A stretch of DNA of 40,637 bases from the NCBI GenBank assembly GCA_021825865.1, contig JAKAFU010000015.1, positions 1 through 40,637 on the forward strand, given 5' to 3'. Shown one piece after another: positions 3,792 to 15,221 of the stretch. The DNA is from a bacterium (GTDB lineage Bacteria > SZUA-79 > Acidulodesulfobacterales > Acidulodesulfobacteraceae). Every line of letters starts with the position of its first letter. Position 1 is the first letter of the stretch. Under the pieces are notes generated by a model that saw only the letters and a program-made list of their open reading frames with translations, did no database searches and had not been told where the DNA came from. The translations under genes were made by a program, and so were the position numbers.

Positions 3792-3879
3792 GCCGGGGTG
3801 GCGGAAGTGGTAGACGCAAGGGACTTAAAATCCCTCGGAACTTAGTTCCGTGCCGGTTCGATTCCGGCCCTCGGCACCA
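3792..3879 (+). tRNA. tRNA-Leu (UAA)
   Basis: The acceptor stem pairs GCCGGGG (3792-3798) with CCTCGGC (3869-3875), with discriminator A and encoded CCA (3877-3879). The anticodon stem AGGGA/TCCCT encloses the loop CTTAAAA, giving anticodon TAA (3826-3828). A long variable arm (CGGAACTTAGTTCCG) and total length of 88 nt confirm a class II tRNA for leucine. Confidence 0.95.
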
Positions 3880-4385: not shown

Positions 4386-5378
4386 ATGAACGAAAGTTCA
4401 AAGAAGTTTTACAAACTTTTGGGCGTTGTTATGGCTTTTGTATTTGTAATTTCTATGACAATGTCTAACAGTTCTTTTGCTATGGGGATTAAAAGAATAT
4501 TCCCCCCATGGTGCAAACAGGGCGATCCAGCTCTTCATCAGGGATATAAGTTTAATGCAATAACAGTCGACAATAATCCGGATTATCACGGAAATATTAC
4601 TACTGTTACATTGCATCCGAAATCCAGTTTAGTACTTTATATCGGAGGAAACATATTCTTTGTGCTTCCGCGTTTAGTTAAAGCGTTTCTTAAAGAATAT
4701 CCAAATGTTAAACATGTATTTTACATTACCATTCCTCCCGGAATTCTGATTAGAATGTGGAAACACGGGGATACAATCACCCTTGGCAATTTAACAATGC
4801 ATGTTGTGCCGGATGTATATATGGCAGGAGCAAAAAAATTAAACTATACTAAGAAAATCGGCATGACGGTAGGTAAAAAAGTGACTTATGTTACAAACGA
4901 CCTTGAAATCATGACCGACAAAGGCAATCCTTATCACATAACCGGCTTAAAAAGCTTTTTAAATCCAAAATTAAAGTTGTCTATGCCGAATCCTGAATGG
5001 GAAGGAATTGCAAAGCAGATTAAAATGTCGTTAATAAAAGCAGGCGGCAAAAAATTAGAGCAGGCTGTTTATAATTACGGCGTTAAATCTGGAAGAGTAT
5101 ATTTGACGCATATTCATCATCGTCAGACACCTATAAGAATTATGCAGCATAAATCTGATGCAGGCGTAAATTGGTATTCTGAAGTGAAGTTCCAGGAAAT
5201 GATAGGTAATCCCATAACAGGGGTTAAGATTCCTGCAAGTCAGAATACGACAGCTCTTTACGGTGCAGCTATGACAAAAGGCGCGCCAAATAAAGTTGCC
5301 GCAAAAGAATGGTTAAATTTCTTAAAAACAAAAACAAGCTTAAGTATATTTGAAAGATACGGTTTTAAAGCTCCTTGA
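4386..5378 (+). CDS. Orphan periplasmic substrate-binding protein (ModA-like fold)
   Basis: This 330-residue protein has a signal peptide (hydrophobic core about 11-25, likely cleavage after FA at 32). The mature part looks like a type-2 periplasmic binding protein of the molybdate-binding-like group: a first strand and helix around LVLYIGGNIFFVLPRLVKAFLKEYP (family pattern with an aromatic-P end), a central DAGVNWYSE segment, and the typical C-terminal pattern of a 'KGAPNKVAAKEWLNFL' helix followed by FERYGF. No permease or ATPase gene is adjacent. The mature protein has one Cys (C43) and many His, including H242, H244 and H245 (THIHHRQTP). It is the first gene of a cluster with doxDA and a secreted DsrE-like protein, so a sulfur oxyanion or metal ligand is plausible, but the ligand is unknown. 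AGGAGG precedes the ATG by 8 nt. Confidence 0.75.
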   Translation: MNESSKKFYKLLGVVMAFVFVISMTMSNSSFAMGIKRIFPPWCKQGDPALHQGYKFNAITVDNNPDYHGNITTVTLHPKSSLVLYIGGNIFFVLPRLVKAFLKEYPNVKHVFYITIPPGILIRMWKHGDTITLGNLTMHVVPDVYMAGAKKLNYTKKIGMTVGKKVTYVTNDLEIMTDKGNPYHITGLKSFLNPKLKLSMPNPEWEGIAKQIKMSLIKAGGKKLEQAVYNYGVKSGRVYLTHIHHRQTPIRIMQHKSDAGVNWYSEVKFQEMIGNPITGVKIPASQNTTALYGAAMTKGAPNKVAAKEWLNFLKTKTSLSIFERYGFKAP

Positions 5379-5400
5379 TAGAGTTGTATTAAAATATCGT

Positions 5401-5460
5401 TTATTTGCGGATGTAATTCAGATTTGATTGCAAGCCAAAATGAAGCGCATCCGCAAATAA
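5401..5460. repeat. Perfect 13-bp inverted repeat between binding protein and doxDA
   Basis: TTATTTGCGGATG (5401-5413) is exactly mirrored by CATCCGCAAATAA (5448-5460) around a 34-nt loop. A short palindrome GCACATTGTGC (5461-5471) follows, then only four T's. It could be a terminator, an mRNA-processing or stability hairpin, or an operator. Confidence 0.55.
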
Positions 5461-5486
5461 GCACATTGTGCATAGGTTGTGTTTTA

Positions 5487-5514
5487 TTGACTTACAAAAT
5501 AATTTAATAGTAAT
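5487..5514 (+). promoter_or_regulatory. Candidate promoter of doxDA
   Basis: TTGACT (5487-5492) is followed after 16 bp by AGTAAT (5509-5514). The box matches the one upstream of the binding-protein gene in 16 of 18 positions, which supports both. Confidence 0.45.
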
Positions 5515-5619
5515 TGAATTATTGATAAAAAAATTTAAAATTCTTAAATTTGTCAAAGAAACCTATAAATAATGCAATTTAAGCAAATGTAATAAATGTA
5601 ATTAAATGGGGTAAAGAAA

Positions 5620-6666
5620 ATGGCAAACAATTTTGATGTTAAAGACAGTACGTTTTATCGTTATTTAGCCTATGCTGCAATTCCCTTAAGGATTACACTC
5701 GGCTGGATGTTTTTTTCGGCCGCGTGGAGAAGGGTTGTATTATCGGCAGGGAAATTAGAGCCTAACTCGCCGTTGTGGGTGGGGCATAAGTTTAATACTT
5801 TTATTCCTCATGCAAGCGGATTTATGGGTGTGCATTCTCTGATTCACACATTATTATTAAATCCGGGCGCGTTAGCTGTGTTTCTTGATATATTTACGGT
5901 AATTGAGTTCTTAGTCGGGCTTTCATTAATATTTGGGTTGTTTTCAAGACTTGGCGCATTCGGCGCGGTTTGTTTAGCATTTGGAATATTGTTCGGTTCA
6001 GGATGGCTGGGAGCAACATGTCTTGATGAATGGCAGGTAGGTTCGGTCGAACTAGTGATTGGGCTTCTAATATTGTTCGTCGGCAGCGCATGGTCGTTTG
6101 ACGACTTAGTCAGAAATGCCTGGCCAAATTTTGCTAATTCATTCGGCTACAGATTAATTGGAAACGGTCCATTGTGGGGAAACGGTTTTGTAACATGGGT
6201 TATAATATTCACCGTTTTCGGAACATTAGTAACTATGGGTTCAAATCAATTATTCGACGGCGGAGTCTGGGGAAAATTGCATAATTTTGGCGCAAAAGTC
6301 GTAGTTTCGGTATCTAATGCTAAAATTACCTCTAATAATGTTAAATTTCTAGCATACAGAATTGGCGGAAGCGGCGGCGCTCTGGCAAATATTATGAAAG
6401 TAAAATTGGTTAATGCTGCCGGAAAAACAGTGTATTTATGGAACAATAAAGCCGTAGTTTCACTTCCAAAATCAGATATACATAACATTTACGTTAATAA
6501 AATGACGGTTAATAAATTCAGTCTTGAAATGCCTCTTGGCGCCAAAGCATTTATAACTTTGCCGTTTGCTAAAAAAATTAAGGCGTTGAAAGCAGGAAGT
6601 TATAAATTAGAATTAGAAAATGTCGGCGGACAGGTATTTTCAGGTTCTGCTCAATATAACGGATAA
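5620..6666 (+). CDS. doxDA: DoxD-DoxA fusion, thiosulfate:quinone oxidoreductase
   Basis: This 348-residue membrane protein fuses the two small subunits of thiosulfate:quinone oxidoreductase, which oxidises thiosulfate to tetrathionate and passes electrons to the quinone pool. Residues about 15-165 match DoxD closely: PLRITLGWMFFSAAWRRVVL, then KLEPNS, GHKFN, FTVIEFLVGLSL, and the signature GSGWLGATCLDEWQVGS with C134, across about four membrane segments. One more membrane segment (about 188-208) leads into a C-terminal DoxA domain, a beta-rich module expected outside the membrane. Archaeal Acidianus encodes doxD and doxA separately; acidithiobacilli have the fused form, as here. A 65-bp gap leads to the DsrE-like gene. 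The start is an ATG after a GGGGT stretch. Confidence 0.92.
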   Translation: MANNFDVKDSTFYRYLAYAAIPLRITLGWMFFSAAWRRVVLSAGKLEPNSPLWVGHKFNTFIPHASGFMGVHSLIHTLLLNPGALAVFLDIFTVIEFLVGLSLIFGLFSRLGAFGAVCLAFGILFGSGWLGATCLDEWQVGSVELVIGLLILFVGSAWSFDDLVRNAWPNFANSFGYRLIGNGPLWGNGFVTWVIIFTVFGTLVTMGSNQLFDGGVWGKLHNFGAKVVVSVSNAKITSNNVKFLAYRIGGSGGALANIMKVKLVNAAGKTVYLWNNKAVVSLPKSDIHNIYVNKMTVNKFSLEMPLGAKAFITLPFAKKIKALKAGSYKLELENVGGQVFSGSAQYNG

Positions 6667-6731
6667 TTTAACAGTTATTTATAGTCGTTTAAGTGTGATA
6701 AATATAAAATTAACTAAAAAAGGAGAAGAAA

Positions 6732-7298
6732 ATGAAAAAGAAAAGCTCTTTATTAAGCATTGCAATTATGGCATTTGCAATTGCCGTTTTTTCAATGACA
6801 TCTAATGCTTATGCAAATTGGAGAGGAACAGCTCCAACGATTCATCCTGCCGGATGGTACGGTTGGCACAATGTTAACGGTGTTAGAAAATATTTTCCTA
6901 ATTTATCAATAAGCCCTGCTTTTACAATGGGTGCTCCGATGGTACCGGGAAAAATTTATCATGCAATTTATGTAATCAGCGCAAATAATAAAGTAAAAAT
7001 GAATAAAATCATCGATAATATTCATAATGCTTTAAACGACCCAAGATTAAAAGGTCATATTGTTGTCGAATTACAGGCATTTAGCGCAGGAACGCATCTA
7101 TATTTTAAAGGCAATGGATATAAAAAGGCTTTATTGACTTTAAAAAAAGACGGCGTAGAGTTAGTTCAATGTGCAAACAGCTTATATGAATTGCATATTC
7201 CGGTATCAAAAATATATTCATTTGTGAAAGTTGTTCCGTCAGCTCAGGGCGAAATTATCTTAAGAGAAGCAGAAGGATATGCATATTTAAAACCCTAA
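6732..7298 (+). CDS. Secreted DsrE-family protein
   Basis: This 188-residue protein has a clear signal peptide (charged MKKK, hydrophobic 8-22, likely cleavage after AYA at 28). The mature C-terminal half follows the DsrE/DsrF-like pattern: a GHIVVELQAFSAG strand, a KALLTLKKDGVELVQCANSL segment with the conserved cysteine (C147), and the end motif VVPSAQGEIILREAEGYAYLKP. Cytoplasmic DsrE proteins carry persulfide sulfur. Exported single-Cys relatives are less well understood, and a sulfur-carrier or sulfur-binding role at the DoxDA step is inference. AGGAG lies 6 nt before the ATG. It is the last gene of the cluster, with a strong terminator after it. Confidence 0.85.
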   Translation: MKKKSSLLSIAIMAFAIAVFSMTSNAYANWRGTAPTIHPAGWYGWHNVNGVRKYFPNLSISPAFTMGAPMVPGKIYHAIYVISANNKVKMNKIIDNIHNALNDPRLKGHIVVELQAFSAGTHLYFKGNGYKKALLTLKKDGVELVQCANSLYELHIPVSKIYSFVKVVPSAQGEIILREAEGYAYLKP

Positions 7299-7358: not shown

Positions 7359-7406
7359 AAAAGTCTGTTGTAAAATTGTAAAATTTTATAACAGACTTTT
7401 TTTTTA
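7359..7406 (+). terminator. Rho-independent terminator of the doxDA cluster
   Basis: AAGTCTGTTGTAAAATT (7361-7377) pairs with AATTTTATAACAGACTT (7382-7398) with a single G-U pair, a 4-nt loop and extra A-T pairs, running directly into nine T's. Confidence 0.9.
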
Positions 7407-7502: not shown

Positions 7503-8531
7503 ATGAATAGCGATGAAATATTAAAAAAAATTGAAAACGCATTAAATAAAGCTAAAGTCGAGTTCAATGAAGAAATTACCGAAAAAGGTTTAGAGGAGAT
7601 ATATAAAAATTATCTAGGGAAAAACAGCTTATTAAATAATATTTTGCGCAATATTTCAGGTTATGAGCCTGAAATTCGCAAAACGGTAGGTATGTCCGTC
7701 AATAATGCTAAGATTCAAATTGAAGAAACATATCAAAATTTAAAAGAGCAATTAAAAGTTAAAAATAGTATGTTAAACCGCTCTTTAAAAATTGATATGA
7801 CCCTTCCCGGTATTAAGCTCAAACAGTTTCACACACATCCTATTACTGCAGTGCTTAATGATACTGTAGAATTTTTTACTTCAATGGGATTTGAAGTTGT
7901 AGAAGGGCCTGAAATTGAAACAACCCATTATAACTTTGACGCTTTAAACATTCCTGATAATCACCCTGCAAGAGATATTTGGGATACTTTTTATTTAAAA
8001 AACGGTTTAATTCCAAGAACTCACACATCAAGCGTGCAGGTTAGAACAATGGAAGCAAAGAAACCCCCTCTGAGGGTAATCGCGCCCGGAAGGTGTTACA
8101 GATATGAGTCGGTAGATGCAACCCATTTATTTATGTTTAATCAGGTTGAAGGTCTTTTCGTTGATAAAAATGCAAAATTGAGTGATTTAAAGGGTATTCT
8201 GGAAGCTACGGTTAAGCGTCTGCTGGGCGCAAAAAAAACAAGATTCAGGCCGGCTTTTTATCCTTTTGTAGAACCCGGTTTAGATTTGGATATTGAGTGT
8301 GTTTTTTGCCATGGTAAAGGCTGCAGCGTTTGTAAATTTTCAGGATGGATTGAGGTAATTCCTTGCGGCATGGTACATCCGAAGGTATTTGAATATGCCG
8401 GAATAAATCCGGCAGAGTATAAGGGTTTTGCGTTTGGAATGGGATTTGACCGATTAGTTATGCTGAAATATAACGTTAATGATTTACGGCTGTTATATTC
8501 AGGCAATTTGGACGTTTTAAATCAGTTCTAA
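7503..8531 (+). CDS. pheS: Phenylalanine-tRNA ligase alpha subunit
   Basis: This 342-residue class II synthetase subunit charges tRNA-Phe together with PheT. An N-terminal helical arm (about 1-90) precedes the catalytic core. Visible motifs are the KQFHTHPITAVLNDTVEFF entry to the core, motif 2 (APGRCYRYESVDATHLFMFNQVEG, about 193-216), and motif 3 (GFAFGMGFDRLVML, near 305-318). A Cys-rich CVFCHGKGCSVC segment common in this family precedes GWIEVIPCGMVHPKV. Length is normal. There is no Shine-Dalgarno before the ATG; TATAAA (7492-7497) lies 5 nt upstream, so the transcript may be nearly leaderless. pheT is not next but 4.2 kb downstream. The gene ends only 7 bp before the convergent helicase gene. 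Confidence 0.96.
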   Translation: MNSDEILKKIENALNKAKVEFNEEITEKGLEEIYKNYLGKNSLLNNILRNISGYEPEIRKTVGMSVNNAKIQIEETYQNLKEQLKVKNSMLNRSLKIDMTLPGIKLKQFHTHPITAVLNDTVEFFTSMGFEVVEGPEIETTHYNFDALNIPDNHPARDIWDTFYLKNGLIPRTHTSSVQVRTMEAKKPPLRVIAPGRCYRYESVDATHLFMFNQVEGLFVDKNAKLSDLKGILEATVKRLLGAKKTRFRPAFYPFVEPGLDLDIECVFCHGKGCSVCKFSGWIEVIPCGMVHPKVFEYAGINPAEYKGFAFGMGFDRLVMLKYNVNDLRLLYSGNLDVLNQF

Positions 8532-8538
8532 TTATTGC

Positions 8539-10806
8539 TTAAAAATCTATAAATGAAGACTTATCCCCTGTGTAAGTAATAAAAATAAAATCTTTGGCTC
8601 TTGTAGTTCCTACATAAAATAATCTGCGTTCATCGTCTATAGTATTTTGATAGTTTATAAACGGCGCATTATAAAAAGCACTAAAAGGATGAGGAGTTTT
8701 AATATCGTTGTTTTCTTTATAGACTTTTGGAAAATTAGCGGCTGAAAGGCTGCTCAAAATTACAAAACTAAATTCCATGCCTTTTGATTTATGAATTGTT
8801 CCGATAAAGGCATTTCTGCTATATTTTAACTTAAAATTCTTGTATTGCGGTAAGCTTACATAATAATTAAAAAGCACCTTATATTCTATTTCTTCTTTGA
8901 CAGTTCTTGTCAATATGGCAGCTTTGATACCGCTTATTAACAGTGAGATAAATAAATTAATATTAAATGCAGTTTCATCCTTGCAGTTTTTAAAATGAAT
9001 GAGGTTTACCGCATTTAACTTAATAGAATCATTGAATCCTTCCATGTTATTCAAATCTTTATTGCTTGATATCCAATTATTTGTATTGTAATTAAATGTA
9101 TAAGGGTCGCAAGCATATTTATTCACTAAAATAGGAAAAGTACCCCTTAATTTTAAGTTAAAAGTATTTTTTTCATTTTTAAAATTATTTATATTATCTC
9201 CGCAGAACATTGATTTTGGATACCTGAAGTCTATTTGCCGAATAATATTATTAGAAAAATTTATTATAGACTTATTACACCTATAATTGGATTGTAATAA
9301 AACTGCTTTTCCCGATGGATAAAATAAATCAAAACTGAGTAGATTAATAGAATTACCGCCGTTAAATCCGTATATTGACTGGTCGTCATCGCCTGCATAT
9401 GTAATGTTGCCCCTTCCGTAATCAATTTTTTTAATTATTATATCGCTTAATAAATTAAGGTCCTGATATTCATCAATTAAAATATATTTGTACATTTTTG
9501 CAATTTCAATTAAAATGGATTCGTTTTTAAATAATTTCAAAACATATTGTAAAATATCATCAAAATTGTTTATTCCGTCAATTTCAGCATTACAAGTATT
9601 ATCTTTGCATTTATTTCCTTCATAAATTTTTGGAGTATTTCGGAAGCCTAAATATCTATAATAAATTTTAATGATAGAATAAAAAAAACTATGATAAGTG
9701 TAAATTTTCAAATTATTTTTAATAATTGGTATATTGTCATCCAAATTTAAAGCTTTTAATATTCGAGCTTTAATCTCACCTGCCGCATTATTAGTAAAAG
9801 TTAAAATTAAAATTTCATATGGAGATAGATAATTTAAAAGATATAAGAATTTGTTAACTATAACACTGGTTTTTCCGGAGCCGGCTCCTGCAAGAACAAT
9901 AGCCGGATTATCAATCTCCTTTAAAGCTATGTTTTGAATCCTGCTTAAATTTGTTTTACGATAAGAGTGGCAGTTGAACCTATCTATATTAACTTCTGAT
10001 GTGATATTTATACTTGATTTACTGTCCGAATTATTTTTAATATACGCGATATAAGCTATAATTTTATAAATTAAAGAAGAAGAGTTAAAATAAATTTCGT
10101 AAGAATTAAAATAAACAGTCAGCTTGATAAAATGCTCATTCTTTGTATATTCAAATTTATTAAAATTAAATTTTTTCAAAAAATTTAATTTAATAATTAT
10201 TTGGAAATTACTTGAATAATAAAGAATTAAATCCCCAGAATTTAGTTCTGAAGCTTTTTTTTCGTAAAGATTATTGCGAAAAGCTAAATCCAAAAATTTT
10301 TTTATACTTTCCGGATAAATTTCATCAGTTGCTACCAGTTTTGTCATGCATAATAATTTCAATCTAAGCTTAAATATATCAATATAATTAGATTGCGAAG
10401 ATGAGCTGTTAGCTGCAAGAGTATCGTAAACACTTAAAATGGAAGGAGCTAAACGTTCTAAACAAGGTATAAAAACTGCATGAGGAGTATTTAAAAAGTA
10501 ATCAATAATAGAATTAAAAAGTACAGCATCGTTTAAATTATTAATGCAGATATTTTTGACAAATAAAAAATCAGAATTTTTATAATCGGTTAAAAATTTA
10601 TCTAAACAAAAATTTAACGGTTTTTGATTAGAATTAATTATCAAATTATTTTTATAAATTTTAAAATCTAATATTTTATGAGAGAAACTGACGTTTAATT
10701 TATTTAGACTATTAATAAAATAATTCATTTCATCAGAGCCGAAAAGTTCAGTGCCTATAAGATTATTACGATAAAATGCTATATTTTTAAAGAAATTCAG
10801 ATTCAT
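8539..10806 (-). CDS. UvrD/Rep-like superfamily 1 helicase with long N-terminal extension
   Basis: This 755-residue protein has all main UvrD-type motifs: I AGAGSGKT (306-313), Ia LTFTNNAAGEIKAR, II IDEYQD (444-449), III GDDDQSIYGFNGG (472-484), IV NYRC (507-510), V IGTIHKSKGMEF (668-679) and VI DERRLFYVGTTRAKD (725-739). The first 280 residues are not helicase-like, are rich in Asn, Lys, Ile and Phe, and I do not recognise them. The 157 residues between motifs IV and V are fewer than in PcrA/UvrD, so the 2B region seems reduced. It is therefore unlikely to be standard UvrD; a 3'-5' DNA translocase role is expected. It is divergent from the phosphoribosyltransferase and DprA-like genes and lies between pheS and pheT. 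Confidence 0.9.
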   Translation of the reverse strand: MNLNFFKNIAFYRNNLIGTELFGSDEMNYFINSLNKLNVSFSHKILDFKIYKNNLIINSNQKPLNFCLDKFLTDYKNSDFLFVKNICINNLNDAVLFNSIIDYFLNTPHAVFIPCLERLAPSILSVYDTLAANSSSSQSNYIDIFKLRLKLLCMTKLVATDEIYPESIKKFLDLAFRNNLYEKKASELNSGDLILYYSSNFQIIIKLNFLKKFNFNKFEYTKNEHFIKLTVYFNSYEIYFNSSSLIYKIIAYIAYIKNNSDSKSSINITSEVNIDRFNCHSYRKTNLSRIQNIALKEIDNPAIVLAGAGSGKTSVIVNKFLYLLNYLSPYEILILTFTNNAAGEIKARILKALNLDDNIPIIKNNLKIYTYHSFFYSIIKIYYRYLGFRNTPKIYEGNKCKDNTCNAEIDGINNFDDILQYVLKLFKNESILIEIAKMYKYILIDEYQDLNLLSDIIIKKIDYGRGNITYAGDDDQSIYGFNGGNSINLLSFDLFYPSGKAVLLQSNYRCNKSIINFSNNIIRQIDFRYPKSMFCGDNINNFKNEKNTFNLKLRGTFPILVNKYACDPYTFNYNTNNWISSNKDLNNMEGFNDSIKLNAVNLIHFKNCKDETAFNINLFISLLISGIKAAILTRTVKEEIEYKVLFNYYVSLPQYKNFKLKYSRNAFIGTIHKSKGMEFSFVILSSLSAANFPKVYKENNDIKTPHPFSAFYNAPFINYQNTIDDERRLFYVGTTRAKDFIFITYTGDKSSFIDF

Positions 10807-11062
10807 ATTATGGTAGAATAAATAACGGATAAAGTTTTTATTTGCTATGGGAGCTAATCAGCGCGAATAAAAAAATAACAGCCGTAATAATTTATGCTAT
10901 GTTTATTAATAATAAGAAGAAGCCTTAGTTTTAACATTTATATTTTTTTAAAAACGAATAATTAATTATATTATACAAGCAATATAAAATTTTTTAATCA
11001 TATATACTTACATATATACTTATACTAAAATATAATATCATATATATGCAATATACAGCAGA

Positions 11063-11635
11063 ATGGCTTATATATCAGACGGCAAAATTAAAGAACCTGG
11101 GATGCAGCATTTAAAAATGCAATATAACGAAAAAGATAATTATTTCTATCTTGGGAATTATTTTCCAAAACGCAAAAGCAGCGCAGATGCATTTTCTAAT
11201 TTAATTATCCAGTACAAAAAAGGCAACAATTTTGCTGTAAAATATTTTGAAAATATAATTGTAAATATTATATTTAATTATTTCTGGTTTTGTGATTTAA
11301 TTGTTCCTGTCCCCACGAGCTCTTCTATGTTAGATGTTTATACAAACAAAATAATATGCTTGTCTTTAAATGCTTTAAATATAATTAAATATGAAGACGA
11401 TATATTAAAAAGAACAAGGGGATATGTGCCTTCACACATTACAAACAGAAGAAATACGGCAGATATTGCAAATTCTATTAAAGTAGTAAACGGGGAGCGC
11501 ATTAAAAATAAAAAAATTATTCTTTTTGATGATATAATAACGACAGGTCATACCTCTGGTGCAATCAGGAATATACTGATATCAAAAGGGGCAGATTCAG
11601 TTATAATGTTATTTATAGGAAGAACTGTAAATTAA
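11063..11635 (+). CDS. ComF-like phosphoribosyltransferase
   Basis: This 190-residue protein has a type I phosphoribosyltransferase core with the PRPP loop ILFDDIITTGHT (153-164) and the preceding strand DLIVPVPTSS (78-87). A KRTRGYVPSHITNRRN segment (116-131) occupies the position of the ComF 'R.....Q......R..N' region but lacks its usual Gln pattern. The N-terminal zinc ribbon of ComF (four Cys) is absent. It is followed after 14 bp by the DprA-like gene, so the two are probably one transcript. ComF and DprA both belong to DNA uptake and recombination pathways, yet no other competence genes are here. A possible -10 TATAAT lies at 11031-11036; no clear ribosome site is present. Substrate is unknown. 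Confidence 0.8.
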   Translation: MAYISDGKIKEPGMQHLKMQYNEKDNYFYLGNYFPKRKSSADAFSNLIIQYKKGNNFAVKYFENIIVNIIFNYFWFCDLIVPVPTSSSMLDVYTNKIICLSLNALNIIKYEDDILKRTRGYVPSHITNRRNTADIANSIKVVNGERIKNKKIILFDDIITTGHTSGAIRNILISKGADSVIMLFIGRTVN

Positions 11636-11649
11636 AATATTAAATTGTC

Positions 11650-12630
11650 ATGGATGATATTATTTGCACTCTGGCATTAAAGAAAATTCCGGGTTTAAGC
11701 AACAGCCATATATTTATTTTACTTACGCATTTTGCAAATCCATGCGATATATTTAATACAAATAAAACTGAATTTTTAAAAATTGGACTTAGGAACGATA
11801 TTATAGAAATATTGATGGATTCAAGAATCGTAAGAACATCGTTTATGCACGCAATAGACGAGGTGGAAGAAGCTGCGAAAAATAATATTAAAATAATTAC
11901 GTTTCAATCACCTGAATATCCGGCTAATCTCTTATTTGTTAAAAATAAGCCTCCTATTTTGTATTATAAGGGGAATATTAAAGAAAATCTTAGATTTGCA
12001 GTTGCCGTTATAGGACAAAGGAGACCGCCGGGTTATTCCTGTAACGTCACGGCAGATATAACAAAAAAAATAGGCAATGCCGGATTTTCCGTTATAAGCG
12101 GCCTTGCGGCAGGAATAGATACCGCTGCGCATAGAACGTCGGTAGACAACAATATTAATACAATAGCGTTTATCGGCTCCGGATTGCTGGAACCTGTCTA
12201 TCCGTCTCAAAATGAGGAATTGTATCAGGATATAATATTAAAAAAAGGAGCTGTTATTTCTGAATTACCGCTGCATGAAAAATTAACGCCTAAGAATTTA
12301 GTTGCGCGCGACAGACTTCAGAGCGGGTCGAGCTTAGCTGTATTTGCGATGTCTTCCCCGTTATCAAGCGGAACATTAAAGACATGCAATTTTGCGTTTA
12401 AACAGAAAAGACCCGTATTTATTCCGGCTTATAAACCCGTCCTTATGGATAATTATTCAAACATGGGACTTAAATCGCTGCTGAATAGGAAAGGGGTCAT
12501 TAATTTTAATGTTGAAAATATTGATTTAAACGATATAATTGATGAAATAAGAATAGTGTATAATGATTTATACGAAGAAAAATATGAAAAGGCAGGATAT
12601 TTATTAGAACAGCCCAGTTTATTCGCCTAA
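11650..12630 (+). CDS. Divergent DprA/Smf-like protein
   Basis: This 326-residue protein has the DprA Rossmann core: PPILYYKGNI (101-110), AVAVIGQRRPPGY (117-129), VISGLAAGIDTAAH (148-161), TIAFIGSGLLEPVYPSQN (171-188) and VISELPL (202-208). The canonical RNRI loop reads RDRLQSGSSLAVFAM (220-234), and SGTLKTCNFA follows at 240-249. In classical DprA this loop is RNR; the RDRLQSG version marks a divergent subfamily. DprA loads RecA on incoming single-stranded DNA; whether this one does is not certain. An N-terminal helical domain (1-90) looks like the HhH/SAM-type region. Downstream, 143 bp of spacer leads to pheT. No Shine-Dalgarno is seen before the ATG. Confidence 0.85.
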   Translation: MDDIICTLALKKIPGLSNSHIFILLTHFANPCDIFNTNKTEFLKIGLRNDIIEILMDSRIVRTSFMHAIDEVEEAAKNNIKIITFQSPEYPANLLFVKNKPPILYYKGNIKENLRFAVAVIGQRRPPGYSCNVTADITKKIGNAGFSVISGLAAGIDTAAHRTSVDNNINTIAFIGSGLLEPVYPSQNEELYQDIILKKGAVISELPLHEKLTPKNLVARDRLQSGSSLAVFAMSSPLSSGTLKTCNFAFKQKRPVFIPAYKPVLMDNYSNMGLKSLLNRKGVINFNVENIDLNDIIDEIRIVYNDLYEEKYEKAGYLLEQPSLFA

Positions 12631-12773
12631 TTAATGGAAAACGCACATGTGAATATAATAGCTAATAGTGGAAATAATACGGAGATAAAAATATATATAT
12701 TATATATATTGTATATATAATTAAAATAGACATGACAAAATTATAAAATAATTAATAATTACCGGAGGAAATT

Positions 12774-15221
12774 TTGAAGGTTAGTTTCAATTGGCTAAAA
12801 GAATATATTGATTTTACCGGAAAAGAAAATATAGTGCCGTCTTTGCTAAATAGCAGGACGATGGAGGTTGAAAAAATTATTGCTTATTCGGAAAAGAAAT
12901 CGTTTAAAAATATAATAGTAGGAGAAGTGAAAGAAATCAAACCGCATCCGTCGAGTCCTAATTTTAATATTGCAACAGTCTATGCAGGGGAAGACGCGGG
13001 ACAAAAAACAATAGTTTATACGAAGGCTAAAGCAGAGTTAAGTATCGGCGATAAACCGCTGATAGCTATTAAAGGCGCTGTTTTTGACGATGGACTGAAA
13101 ATCAGAGAAAAATCTATCCTTGGGGTTGTTTCGGAAGGGGCATTCTGTTCCGAAAAAGAGCTGGGATTTTCTCTAAATGTATCAAATATATTGAAATTTC
13201 CCGATGAACCTTTAGGAAAATCAGCATACGATATTTTTGAATTAAATGATATCGTTTTAGAATTTGACCTTGAACCAAACAGACCGGATTTGTTCGGCAT
13301 TCAAGGATTTGCTTATGAAATGTCGTCTATATTTGATAAAGATATAAATTTACCGAATATAGACGAAGATATTGAATTTAATGTAGGCGGTTCATATTCT
13401 TCAAAACCGGAAGAGATTACGGTAGTGATGAGCAATCCTGAAGCAGTTCCGTGTTATATTGCAGTACAAATTGACGATATATTTATTAAAGAATCCGACT
13501 TGGAAATTAAAAATAAATTAATTAAATCAGGGATAAGACCTATAAATAATATAGTAGATTTAACAAATTTAGTAATGCTCGAAACTGCTCAGCCTCTGCA
13601 TGCCTTTGACAAAATTAAGCTTTCCGGAAATAAAATCTTTCCGAGATTAAATAAAAAAAATGATGATACTATTGTAACTATTGACAATAAAGAAAGAAAA
13701 CTTTTTGACGATTCAATAATTATCGCTGACGAAGACAAGATTATTGCGCTTGGAGGAATTATGGGGGCAATCTCAAGCGCAATAGATGCAAAAACAAATT
13801 CCGTCATAGTTGAATCTGCCAATTTTAACATGTCAAACATCAGAAAGACATCAAGATTAATGGCGCTGAGAACTGATGCCTCTACAAGATTTGAAAAAGG
13901 ATTAAGCCCCGTTTCCGCCATTAATGCCATGAAGAGGATTGTATATCTGATTAAAAAGAATGTTCCGGAAGCTAAAGTAAATTGTTATTCGTATTATATT
14001 GCGGATATTATAAAACCTAAAGAATTTCATATATATTTTAATGAATTATTTAATTTTTTAGGGCAGCCCATAGATAAAAATAAAGTGTTCAAAATATTGT
14101 CAAGATTGGGTTTTAATGTCAGACTGTCTGAAATGGAAGACGGTATTTTTGTTACGGCTCCGTATTTTAGAAGCGATATTTTTGATGCAATAAATATTTA
14201 TGAAGAAATATTTAGAATTTATGGATATGACAAGGTTAAATCTACAATGCCCGAAGGTATTTTAAACTATCCTGAAGCAAATATTAATTATCAGACATCT
14301 AAAGAAATAAAAGAAATACTGGGGCATGCAGGTCTTGTTGAAATTATAACCCCGTCTTTTACGGGCAGCAAAGAACTTGAGATAATTTCTGAAAATTTCA
14401 ATAATGCTCTGGAACTTAAAAATCCGATTTCCGTCGAATTTAATTATCTAAGAACAAGCCTTATACCGGATTCTCTTAAGACATTAAATCAAAATTTAAA
14501 AAAATATAAAGATGTTAAAATTTATGAAATAGGAAAAATTTATTTCAGCAAAGATAATAAGGATAATGATGATAATAAAAAGTATGCGGATAATTATCCG
14601 GTCATAGAAAAAAATAGACTGTGCGGAGCATTTTGTTCCGGTATAAAATTTCAGAGCGAAGATACTGAATTTTACAGGATAAAAGGTACAGTCGAATTTT
14701 TATTTTCAAATCTTGGAATAAAAAAATATAATTTTATGCAGCCAAAAGAGCATAATATATTTGATACAGATAGAACGCTTGAAATTTTTATCGGTAAATC
14801 TTCAGCCGGTTTTTTTGGTGAAATCAAGACCGGGATACTTGAAGAATTCGGTTTAGAATTTAGGGTAGGCGTGTTTGATATAGATTTTGAAGTTATAAAA
14901 GAATTTATTTCTCATAAAAAAAATTTTATAGCTCCTTCCAAATATCCCATCATAGAACAAGATATTTCTATTATTGCCTCTATGGATTTAGAATATGGTG
15001 AAATTGAGAAATTTATTAAAAGATTCTCAAATCTTATAAAAAATATTGCCTTAATCGATATTTACAGAGGAAAGCAGATAGAAAAAGGAAAGATAGCGTA
15101 TTTAATAAGATATGATGCCTCCGATGACTCAAGAACATTAACTATGAAAGAAGTGAATGAACTGAGAGACAGGCTGCTCATAGAGTTGAACAAAAATTTC
15201 GGAATTATTCTGAGAGGATAA
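12774..15221 (+). CDS. pheT: Phenylalanine-tRNA ligase beta subunit
   Basis: This 815-residue subunit has the normal length and order: an N-terminal start KVSFNWLKEYIDF, a tRNA-binding OB fold (about 40-150, VGEVKEIKPHPSS), B3/4 editing region (GIRPINNIVDLTNLVMLETAQPLHAFD; later LRTDASTRFEKG), a B5 domain, the catalytic-like core, and a C-terminal FDX-ACB domain (APSKYPIIEQDISIIA; ending in ELNKNFGIILRG). The start is TTG at 12774, chosen because GGAGG at 12764-12768 lies 5 nt upstream and the family begins exactly here. It is separated from pheS by the helicase, phosphoribosyltransferase and DprA-like genes. Confidence 0.97.
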   Translation: MKVSFNWLKEYIDFTGKENIVPSLLNSRTMEVEKIIAYSEKKSFKNIIVGEVKEIKPHPSSPNFNIATVYAGEDAGQKTIVYTKAKAELSIGDKPLIAIKGAVFDDGLKIREKSILGVVSEGAFCSEKELGFSLNVSNILKFPDEPLGKSAYDIFELNDIVLEFDLEPNRPDLFGIQGFAYEMSSIFDKDINLPNIDEDIEFNVGGSYSSKPEEITVVMSNPEAVPCYIAVQIDDIFIKESDLEIKNKLIKSGIRPINNIVDLTNLVMLETAQPLHAFDKIKLSGNKIFPRLNKKNDDTIVTIDNKERKLFDDSIIIADEDKIIALGGIMGAISSAIDAKTNSVIVESANFNMSNIRKTSRLMALRTDASTRFEKGLSPVSAINAMKRIVYLIKKNVPEAKVNCYSYYIADIIKPKEFHIYFNELFNFLGQPIDKNKVFKILSRLGFNVRLSEMEDGIFVTAPYFRSDIFDAINIYEEIFRIYGYDKVKSTMPEGILNYPEANINYQTSKEIKEILGHAGLVEIITPSFTGSKELEIISENFNNALELKNPISVEFNYLRTSLIPDSLKTLNQNLKKYKDVKIYEIGKIYFSKDNKDNDDNKKYADNYPVIEKNRLCGAFCSGIKFQSEDTEFYRIKGTVEFLFSNLGIKKYNFMQPKEHNIFDTDRTLEIFIGKSSAGFFGEIKTGILEEFGLEFRVGVFDIDFEVIKEFISHKKNFIAPSKYPIIEQDISIIASMDLEYGEIEKFIKRFSNLIKNIALIDIYRGKQIEKGKIAYLIRYDASDDSRTLTMKEVNELRDRLLIELNKNFGIILRG

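Follow-up and report, generated by a model that had tools for sequence, protein, structure and literature searches.

Three consecutive genes in a 40,637 bp stretch of DNA (the window; contig JAKAFU010000015.1 of assembly GCA_021825865.1, Acidulodesulfobacteraceae; host genome 1.9 Mb, 90.5% complete) encode an exported solute-binding protein (SBP), a fused DoxD-DoxA thiosulfate:quinone oxidoreductase (TQO; DoxDA) and a secreted protein of the DsrE superfamily (DsrEx). A signal-bearing DsrE, either beside DoxDA or one to a few genes off, is found at 30 of 80 DoxDA loci in four phyla, these loci being the best 80 from a DoxDA-profile scan of a species-level genome collection. Since the same partners lie beside DoxDA in several unrelated phyla, the exported DsrE is very probably a real working part of TQO. 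With moderate confidence we take the three genes to form one functional unit, in which TQO would be served by two exported substrate-handling partners and Cys147 of DsrEx would carry thiosulfate. The unit is bounded by a tRNA gene and a terminator-like hairpin, and its features are as follows.

3792-3876, + strand: tRNA gene, left boundary of the unit (Rfam tRNA match)
4386-5378, + strand: SBP, exported orphan solute-binding protein of 330 aa with a ModA / PEB3 / sulfate-binding-like fold (Pfam, AlphaFold and Foldseek, 18-row alignment)
5399-5462, + strand: strong hairpin between SBP and DoxDA (inverted repeat; RNA fold)
5620-6666, + strand: DoxDA, fused TQO of 348 aa with Cys134 in GATCLDEW (Pfam DoxD and DoxA, invariant Cys134, hydrophobic segments)
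6732-7298, + strand: DsrEx, secreted DsrE-superfamily protein of 188 aa with a single cysteine, Cys147 (phmmer, profile, fold, invariant Cys)
7359-7400, + strand: intrinsic-terminator-like hairpin at the end of the unit (19-pair stem, 4-nt loop, T tail)

The three proteins

The N-terminus of SBP contains a hydrophobic, signal-peptide-like segment (residues 6-35), and the protein matches Pfam SBP_bac_11 far above the cut-off (E = 4e-36). Its AlphaFold model (pLDDT 83) was matched by Foldseek to YvgL-like proteins, ModA, SubI and PEB3, and alignment of 18 rows reveals the invariant motifs PPW, DxHG and IHHRQ. No ABC permease or ATPase gene is evident by eye among the open reading frames of the window, which agrees with the description of a signal-peptide binding protein lacking an ABC partner in the initial annotation; nor is any ABC-transporter gene annotated within 3.5-6 kb of the plasmid-borne SBP homologs, one of whose records comes without a gene table. 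Weak homologs (33-37% identity) from many gammaproteobacteria, which do not lie beside DoxD, were excluded from the comparison. The identity of SBP as the molybdate-binding protein ModA was rejected on its score against the NCBIfam equivalog TIGR01256, which is below the cut-off. The ligand would be a sulfur oxyanion, with thiosulfate favoured.

The ModA-like fold would also suit a scavenger of molybdate or sulfate that is unrelated to its neighbours and stands next to them by accident. The TIGR01256 score (30.1 bits against a required 62.5) argues against this, as does the restriction of SBP, within the family, to genomes with this DoxDA; SBP is found beside DoxDA in other classes too. This explanation is further weakened by the co-occurrence of the three genes described below, and we regard it as very improbable.

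Both domains of DoxDA exceed their Pfam cut-offs (DoxD, 1.5e-40 and 139 bits against 22.7; DoxA, 9e-23 and 81 bits against 27), and Cys134, within GATCLDEW, is invariant in an eight-row alignment, some of whose members are distant DoxDAs (30-40% identity). The protein had been annotated as a DoxD-DoxA fusion with the signature cysteine, and these results bear that out. Its score of 107 bits against the NCBIfam equivalog NF041179 (TQO_large_DoxD) is below the cut-off of 300, so that membership is at the domain level only, outside this equivalog. By its domains it is a predicted TQO, expected to oxidize thiosulfate to tetrathionate with quinone.

In known systems, DsrE proteins carry sulfur in the cytoplasm. 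DsrEx possesses a hydrophobic, signal-peptide-like segment at residues 3-28. Alone it scores 17.4 bits against Pfam DsrE (PF02635; cut-off 22.7), whereas proteins that occupy its role in other phyla exceed that cut-off at 40.9, 38.5 and 30.6 bits. It matches MTH1491 (1l1s) in phmmer (1.6e-7), and a 20-row profile of its family matches MTH1491, ST0148 and DsrE/F structure entries (5e-11). The core of the AlphaFold model has a pLDDT above 90; the best Foldseek match is 1l1s (TM 0.95 on the target), followed by ST0148, YchN, TusBCD and DsrEFH, and all 12 matches at probability 1.0 are DsrE-like, YchN, Tus or DsrEFH proteins or small proteins of the same fold. Placement in a non-sulfur family was considered and rejected, the confident fold matches belonging without exception to the DsrE superfamily. 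The only cysteine, Cys147, lies in the model at the end of the strand formed by residues 143-147, and it is invariant in 42 of 42 aligned secreted DsrEs. The initial annotation, which proposed a signal-peptide DsrE-family protein with a conserved Cys147, stands on each count: MTH1491, the family profile and the fold all point to DsrE, and the cysteine is conserved.

Recurrence of the exported partners

Among 30 genomes of the family, the same 13 contain SBP, full DoxDA and DsrEx (at least 76% identity), and in every family locus read the genes are adjacent and in the constant order SBP-DoxDA-DsrE. The three consecutive genes first noted in the window are thus kept together in 13 of 13 family genomes and 11 of 11 loci. 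The members of genome group g6 have all three genes or none, a sox-linked copy of DsrEx excepted, a pattern that speaks for transfer or loss of the unit as a whole. Chance adjacency was rejected on this all-or-none co-occurrence together with recurrence in distant phyla.

The link between a secreted DsrE and TQO holds well beyond the window. Within its own phylum, the acid-mine Candidatus Acidulodesulfobacteriota, the gene lies 31-75 bp downstream of DoxDA (11 loci). It lies 71 and 166 bp upstream in two loci of Acidobacteriota and 12-24 bp upstream in five of Bacteroidota; the latter proteins are the weakest members, recovered with the iterated profile only (E ≤1e-27 after inclusion; Pfam 0.039 for one). 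The remaining 12 loci are from acidophilic Proteobacteria, with the order DsrE-SBP-DoxDA, DoxDA being 2.5-3 kb further along in L186 and L188. In three proteobacterial loci (L185, L190 and L194) DoxDA is directly followed by a CydA-like quinol oxidase gene, named by eye. A search of the neighbourhoods of the 80 DoxDA loci with the secreted rhodanese of relatives (L080) as query found none. Directly upstream of many Bacteroidota DoxDAs that lack DsrE is the gene for a small exported protein, about 116-126 aa long and of unassigned family (L145, L147, L149, L152, L153, L157, L159, L161, L167 and L181).

SBP stands upstream of DoxDA in 20 proteobacterial loci, where the preceding gene encodes a secreted DsrE (12 loci) or a Tat-exported protein of approximately 260 aa (8 loci). 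The two are exchanged in one slot between close DoxDA relatives, L197 having the DsrE and L205 the Tat protein. One or the other is also immediately upstream of SBP in 11 of 11 plasmid loci examined (8 Tat, 3 DsrE), several of which are near copies; in Acetobacter and Kozakia the plasmid gene after SBP is DoxDA. Orphan SBPs can act in signalling, and DsbD, DsbA or thioredoxin-like genes occur near several SBP loci; SBP could accordingly be a signal receptor, and DsrE could protect DoxDA or other exported thiols by reducing or repairing their polysulfide or thiosulfonate adducts. Sensor and regulator genes, however, are not consistent neighbours; those that are, namely DoxDA, cytochromes c and terminal oxidases, serve electron transfer, which makes a role in sensing or repair improbable.

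A quick tree places the DoxDA of the window with those of Aquificota, which are partnerless, and far from the partnered proteobacterial DoxDAs. At least seven label changes are counted on the DoxDA tree for DsrE and four for SBP, and at least three on the DsrE tree for linkage to DoxDA; the trees are unrooted, and these counts do not separate gain from loss. The DoxDA-linked DsrEs do not form one group, which favours repeated association, and DsrEx itself is sister to copies from its own phylum without DoxDA, of which two lie in sox clusters. Function is the best explanation for such repeated association and replacement.

The C-terminal half of the Tat-exported protein has the motif RGVVFLxCHN in 16 of 16 sequences, resembling GVELVQCANS around Cys147, and when the profiles of this family and of the secreted DsrEs are compared, E is 3e-5 (probability 73); these similarities are suggestive of a remotely DsrE-like domain. 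In Acidithiobacillus ferrooxidans, AFE_0042, a "Tat pathway signal sequence" protein (PMC2754497), is a thiosulfate dehydrogenase (TSD) of about 25 kDa that forms tetrathionate, reduces neither ubiquinone nor cytochrome c, and adjoins sbp and doxDA (PMC6335251). From gene position, size and signal, rather than from sequence, the Tat family looks like TSD. Acidithiobacillus is absent from the best 80 DoxDA loci, and none was identifiable in a search of the class. Likely TSD-type Tat proteins on plasmids (L226, L227, L242, L243, L244 and L248) are annotated "transcriptional initiation protein Tat," apparently in error.

The A. ferrooxidans cluster tsd-sbp-doxDA-rhd (AFE_0042 to AFE_0045; PMC6335251, PMC2754497) is the closest precedent in layout: a periplasmic SBP adjoins a fused DoxDA, as here, AFE_0043 being likened to the SBP of the window by gene order, not by sequence. 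The exported TSD, with its Tat signal, and the rhodanese-like P21 belong to the same operon, which is induced on sulfur. No DsrE has been described there, whereas the window has a DsrE as its exported sulfur protein, encoded downstream of DoxDA. DsrEx is also shorter than TSD, lacks a twin-arginine signal, and does not sit directly upstream of SBP. The earlier suggestion of a little-described sulfur-transfer route consequently holds in part: the secreted DsrE in this role is new, while the arrangement of SBP, DoxDA and an exported sulfurtransferase was already known. Our literature search, of incomplete coverage, found no description of a DsrE, secreted or periplasmic, in association with TQO, and a 2019 description of this order (PMC6776010) mentions dsr and sox genes but contains no word beginning with "dox."

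Proposed function and alternatives

The cytoplasmic DsrE3A of Metallosphaera cuprina forms a Cys-S-thiosulfonate with tetrathionate (PMC4175335), and it is on this chemistry that we propose thiosulfate to be carried on Cys147 of DsrEx. The M. cuprina DsrE/TusA system resembles ours in its DsrE fold, its reactive cysteine and its host, a sulfur-oxidizing acidophile with TQO. DsrE3A, however, is cytoplasmic, with two conserved cysteines and TusA as its partner, whereas DsrEx is exported, has one cysteine and sits with TQO; the fold nearest to DsrEx is that of MTH1491, the DsrE3A-type structure 3mc3 ranking fourth. DsrEFH and TusBCD share the fold superfamily of DsrEx. They are cytoplasmic heterohexamers serving DsrC or TusE, unlike DsrEx, which is a single exported protein.

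In the proposed sequence, SBP would act on the outer side of the cytoplasmic membrane, capturing a sulfur oxyanion that is most likely thiosulfate. DsrEx would hold the thiosulfate unit as a Cys-S-thiosulfonate at Cys147. DoxDA, in putative contact with DsrEx, would pass two electrons to quinone, a second thiosulfate would free tetrathionate from the cysteine, and the tetrathionate hydrolase (TetH) of the host would then take it; both the order of these steps and the direction of transfer belong to the proposal. The host genome does encode TetH elsewhere (E = 9e-184 to 6L8A), and a second homolog (1.7e-63). With DoxD and DoxA above their cut-offs and TetH, the host resembles organisms using the S4-intermediate pathway (TQO plus tetrathionate hydrolase); unlike the plain pathway, its TQO has two exported partners, and tetH is not adjacent. 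The TetH genes are on other contigs of the host (L240:2439-6226 and L239:2208-3569), and a PQQ-type gene is upstream of the first homolog.

Several points weigh against a three-gene functional unit of this kind. The chief objection is topological: PMC4175335 cites the suggestion that the active site of the Acidianus TQO faces the cytoplasm, which would place it apart from exported partners. Both partners are absent from many DoxDAs (Aquificota, Desulfurella, Polyangium and most Bacteroidota) and are therefore not essential to TQO generally. Conversely, on plasmids of Bradyrhizobium, Methylobacterium, Paraburkholderia, Komagataeibacter and Hymenobacter, the place of DoxDA after SBP is taken by c-type cytochromes, in some cases together with a cbb3 oxidase, or by a SoxB-like protein; the Hymenobacter plasmid DsrE is 40% identical to DsrEx over 113 residues. 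DsrE3A reacts with tetrathionate, not thiosulfate, which fits a role after oxidation equally well (PMC4175335). Finally, the evidence is that of sequence, predicted fold and gene context.

In a role after oxidation, DsrE would receive its thiosulfonate group from the tetrathionate that DoxDA produces and would deliver it to another periplasmic sulfur carrier, such as SoxYZ. That DsrE3A reacts only with tetrathionate (PMC4175335) is in keeping with such a role, and so are the relatives of DsrEx. Copies at 66-70% identity occur without DoxDA and SBP in three more genomes of the family, G009, G012 and G019, and while that of G012 stands alone, those of G009 and G019 sit among sox genes (a cytochrome; soxB in G009), together with other secreted DsrE paralogs; close orthologs and further secreted paralogs are thus found in sox clusters with soxYZ, soxB and cytochromes, the sox genes of relatives having been named by eye. 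The host itself carries such genes on another contig (L072), namely soxYZ, soxB and one for a secreted DsrE. Yet there is no Sox gene in the operon of the window, DsrE and DoxDA occur without nearby sox genes in Acidobacteriota, Bacteroidota and most of the proteobacterial loci read, and a TSD-like protein can replace DsrE in its slot, TSD being an enzyme that forms tetrathionate. We therefore judge a post-oxidation role unlikely, if less so than sensing or repair.

A broader form of the thiosulfate-carrier proposal is possible, and here we are tentative. A secreted DsrE or a DsrE-like Tat-exported TSD, together with the orphan SBP, would form the substrate half, free of cofactors, of a modular thiosulfate dehydrogenase and would hold thiosulfate on one cysteine. 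The acceptor half would be exchangeable: in some cases DoxDA, passing electrons to quinone, and in others c-type cytochromes working with a terminal oxidase. If true, such enzymes would make up a class without heme alongside TsdA and Sox. The failure of purified TSD to reduce either quinone or cytochrome c would then be accounted for, and an outward-facing TQO active site would be implied in these bacteria.

Thiosulfate oxidation in acid mine drainage makes acid and mobilizes metals. A conserved exported DsrE associated with TQO in four or more phyla would mean that this process includes a sulfur-carrier step in the periplasm. The association also bears on the side of the membrane faced by the TQO active site and on how the A. 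ferrooxidans TSD works, and it suggests a function, open to test, for likely genes of TSD and DsrE type that at present bear the label "hypothetical" or "transcriptional initiation protein Tat."

Flanking features and related gene clusters

The gap of 241 bp between SBP and DoxDA contains the hairpin at 5399-5462 (-29.3 kcal/mol, z -5.6), possibly an attenuator or mRNA stabilizer. SBP and DoxDA may for this reason differ in expression level, and the hairpin could possibly set SBP above DoxDA. Terminator matches in the window are in total no more numerous than expected by chance; the stem at 7359-7400 is long all the same. Promoter-like sites are no more numerous than in shuffled sequence. Downstream of the unit, pheS (7503-8531) and pheT (12774-15221) are split, within 7503-15221, by three genes, named by eye as a UvrD-like helicase on the opposite strand, a phosphoribosyltransferase and a DprA-like gene.

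The sox clusters of relatives (L067, L069-L071, L074-L076 and L080), which comprise soxY, soxZ, a DUF302-like gene, soxB and cytochromes c, have several secreted DsrE paralogs in or beside them, and one of these is often a lipoprotein. The arrangement in the host's own genome (L072) is soxYZ-DUF302-soxB-dsrE, and Sox in the Acidulodesulfobacteriota may generally include periplasmic DsrEs. Beside DsrE and sox in L080, L074 and L069 are genes, again named by eye, for a YeeE/YedE-type transporter, a TusA-like protein and two small DsrE/DsrF-like proteins, a set likely to function in the import of thiosulfate or sulfur.

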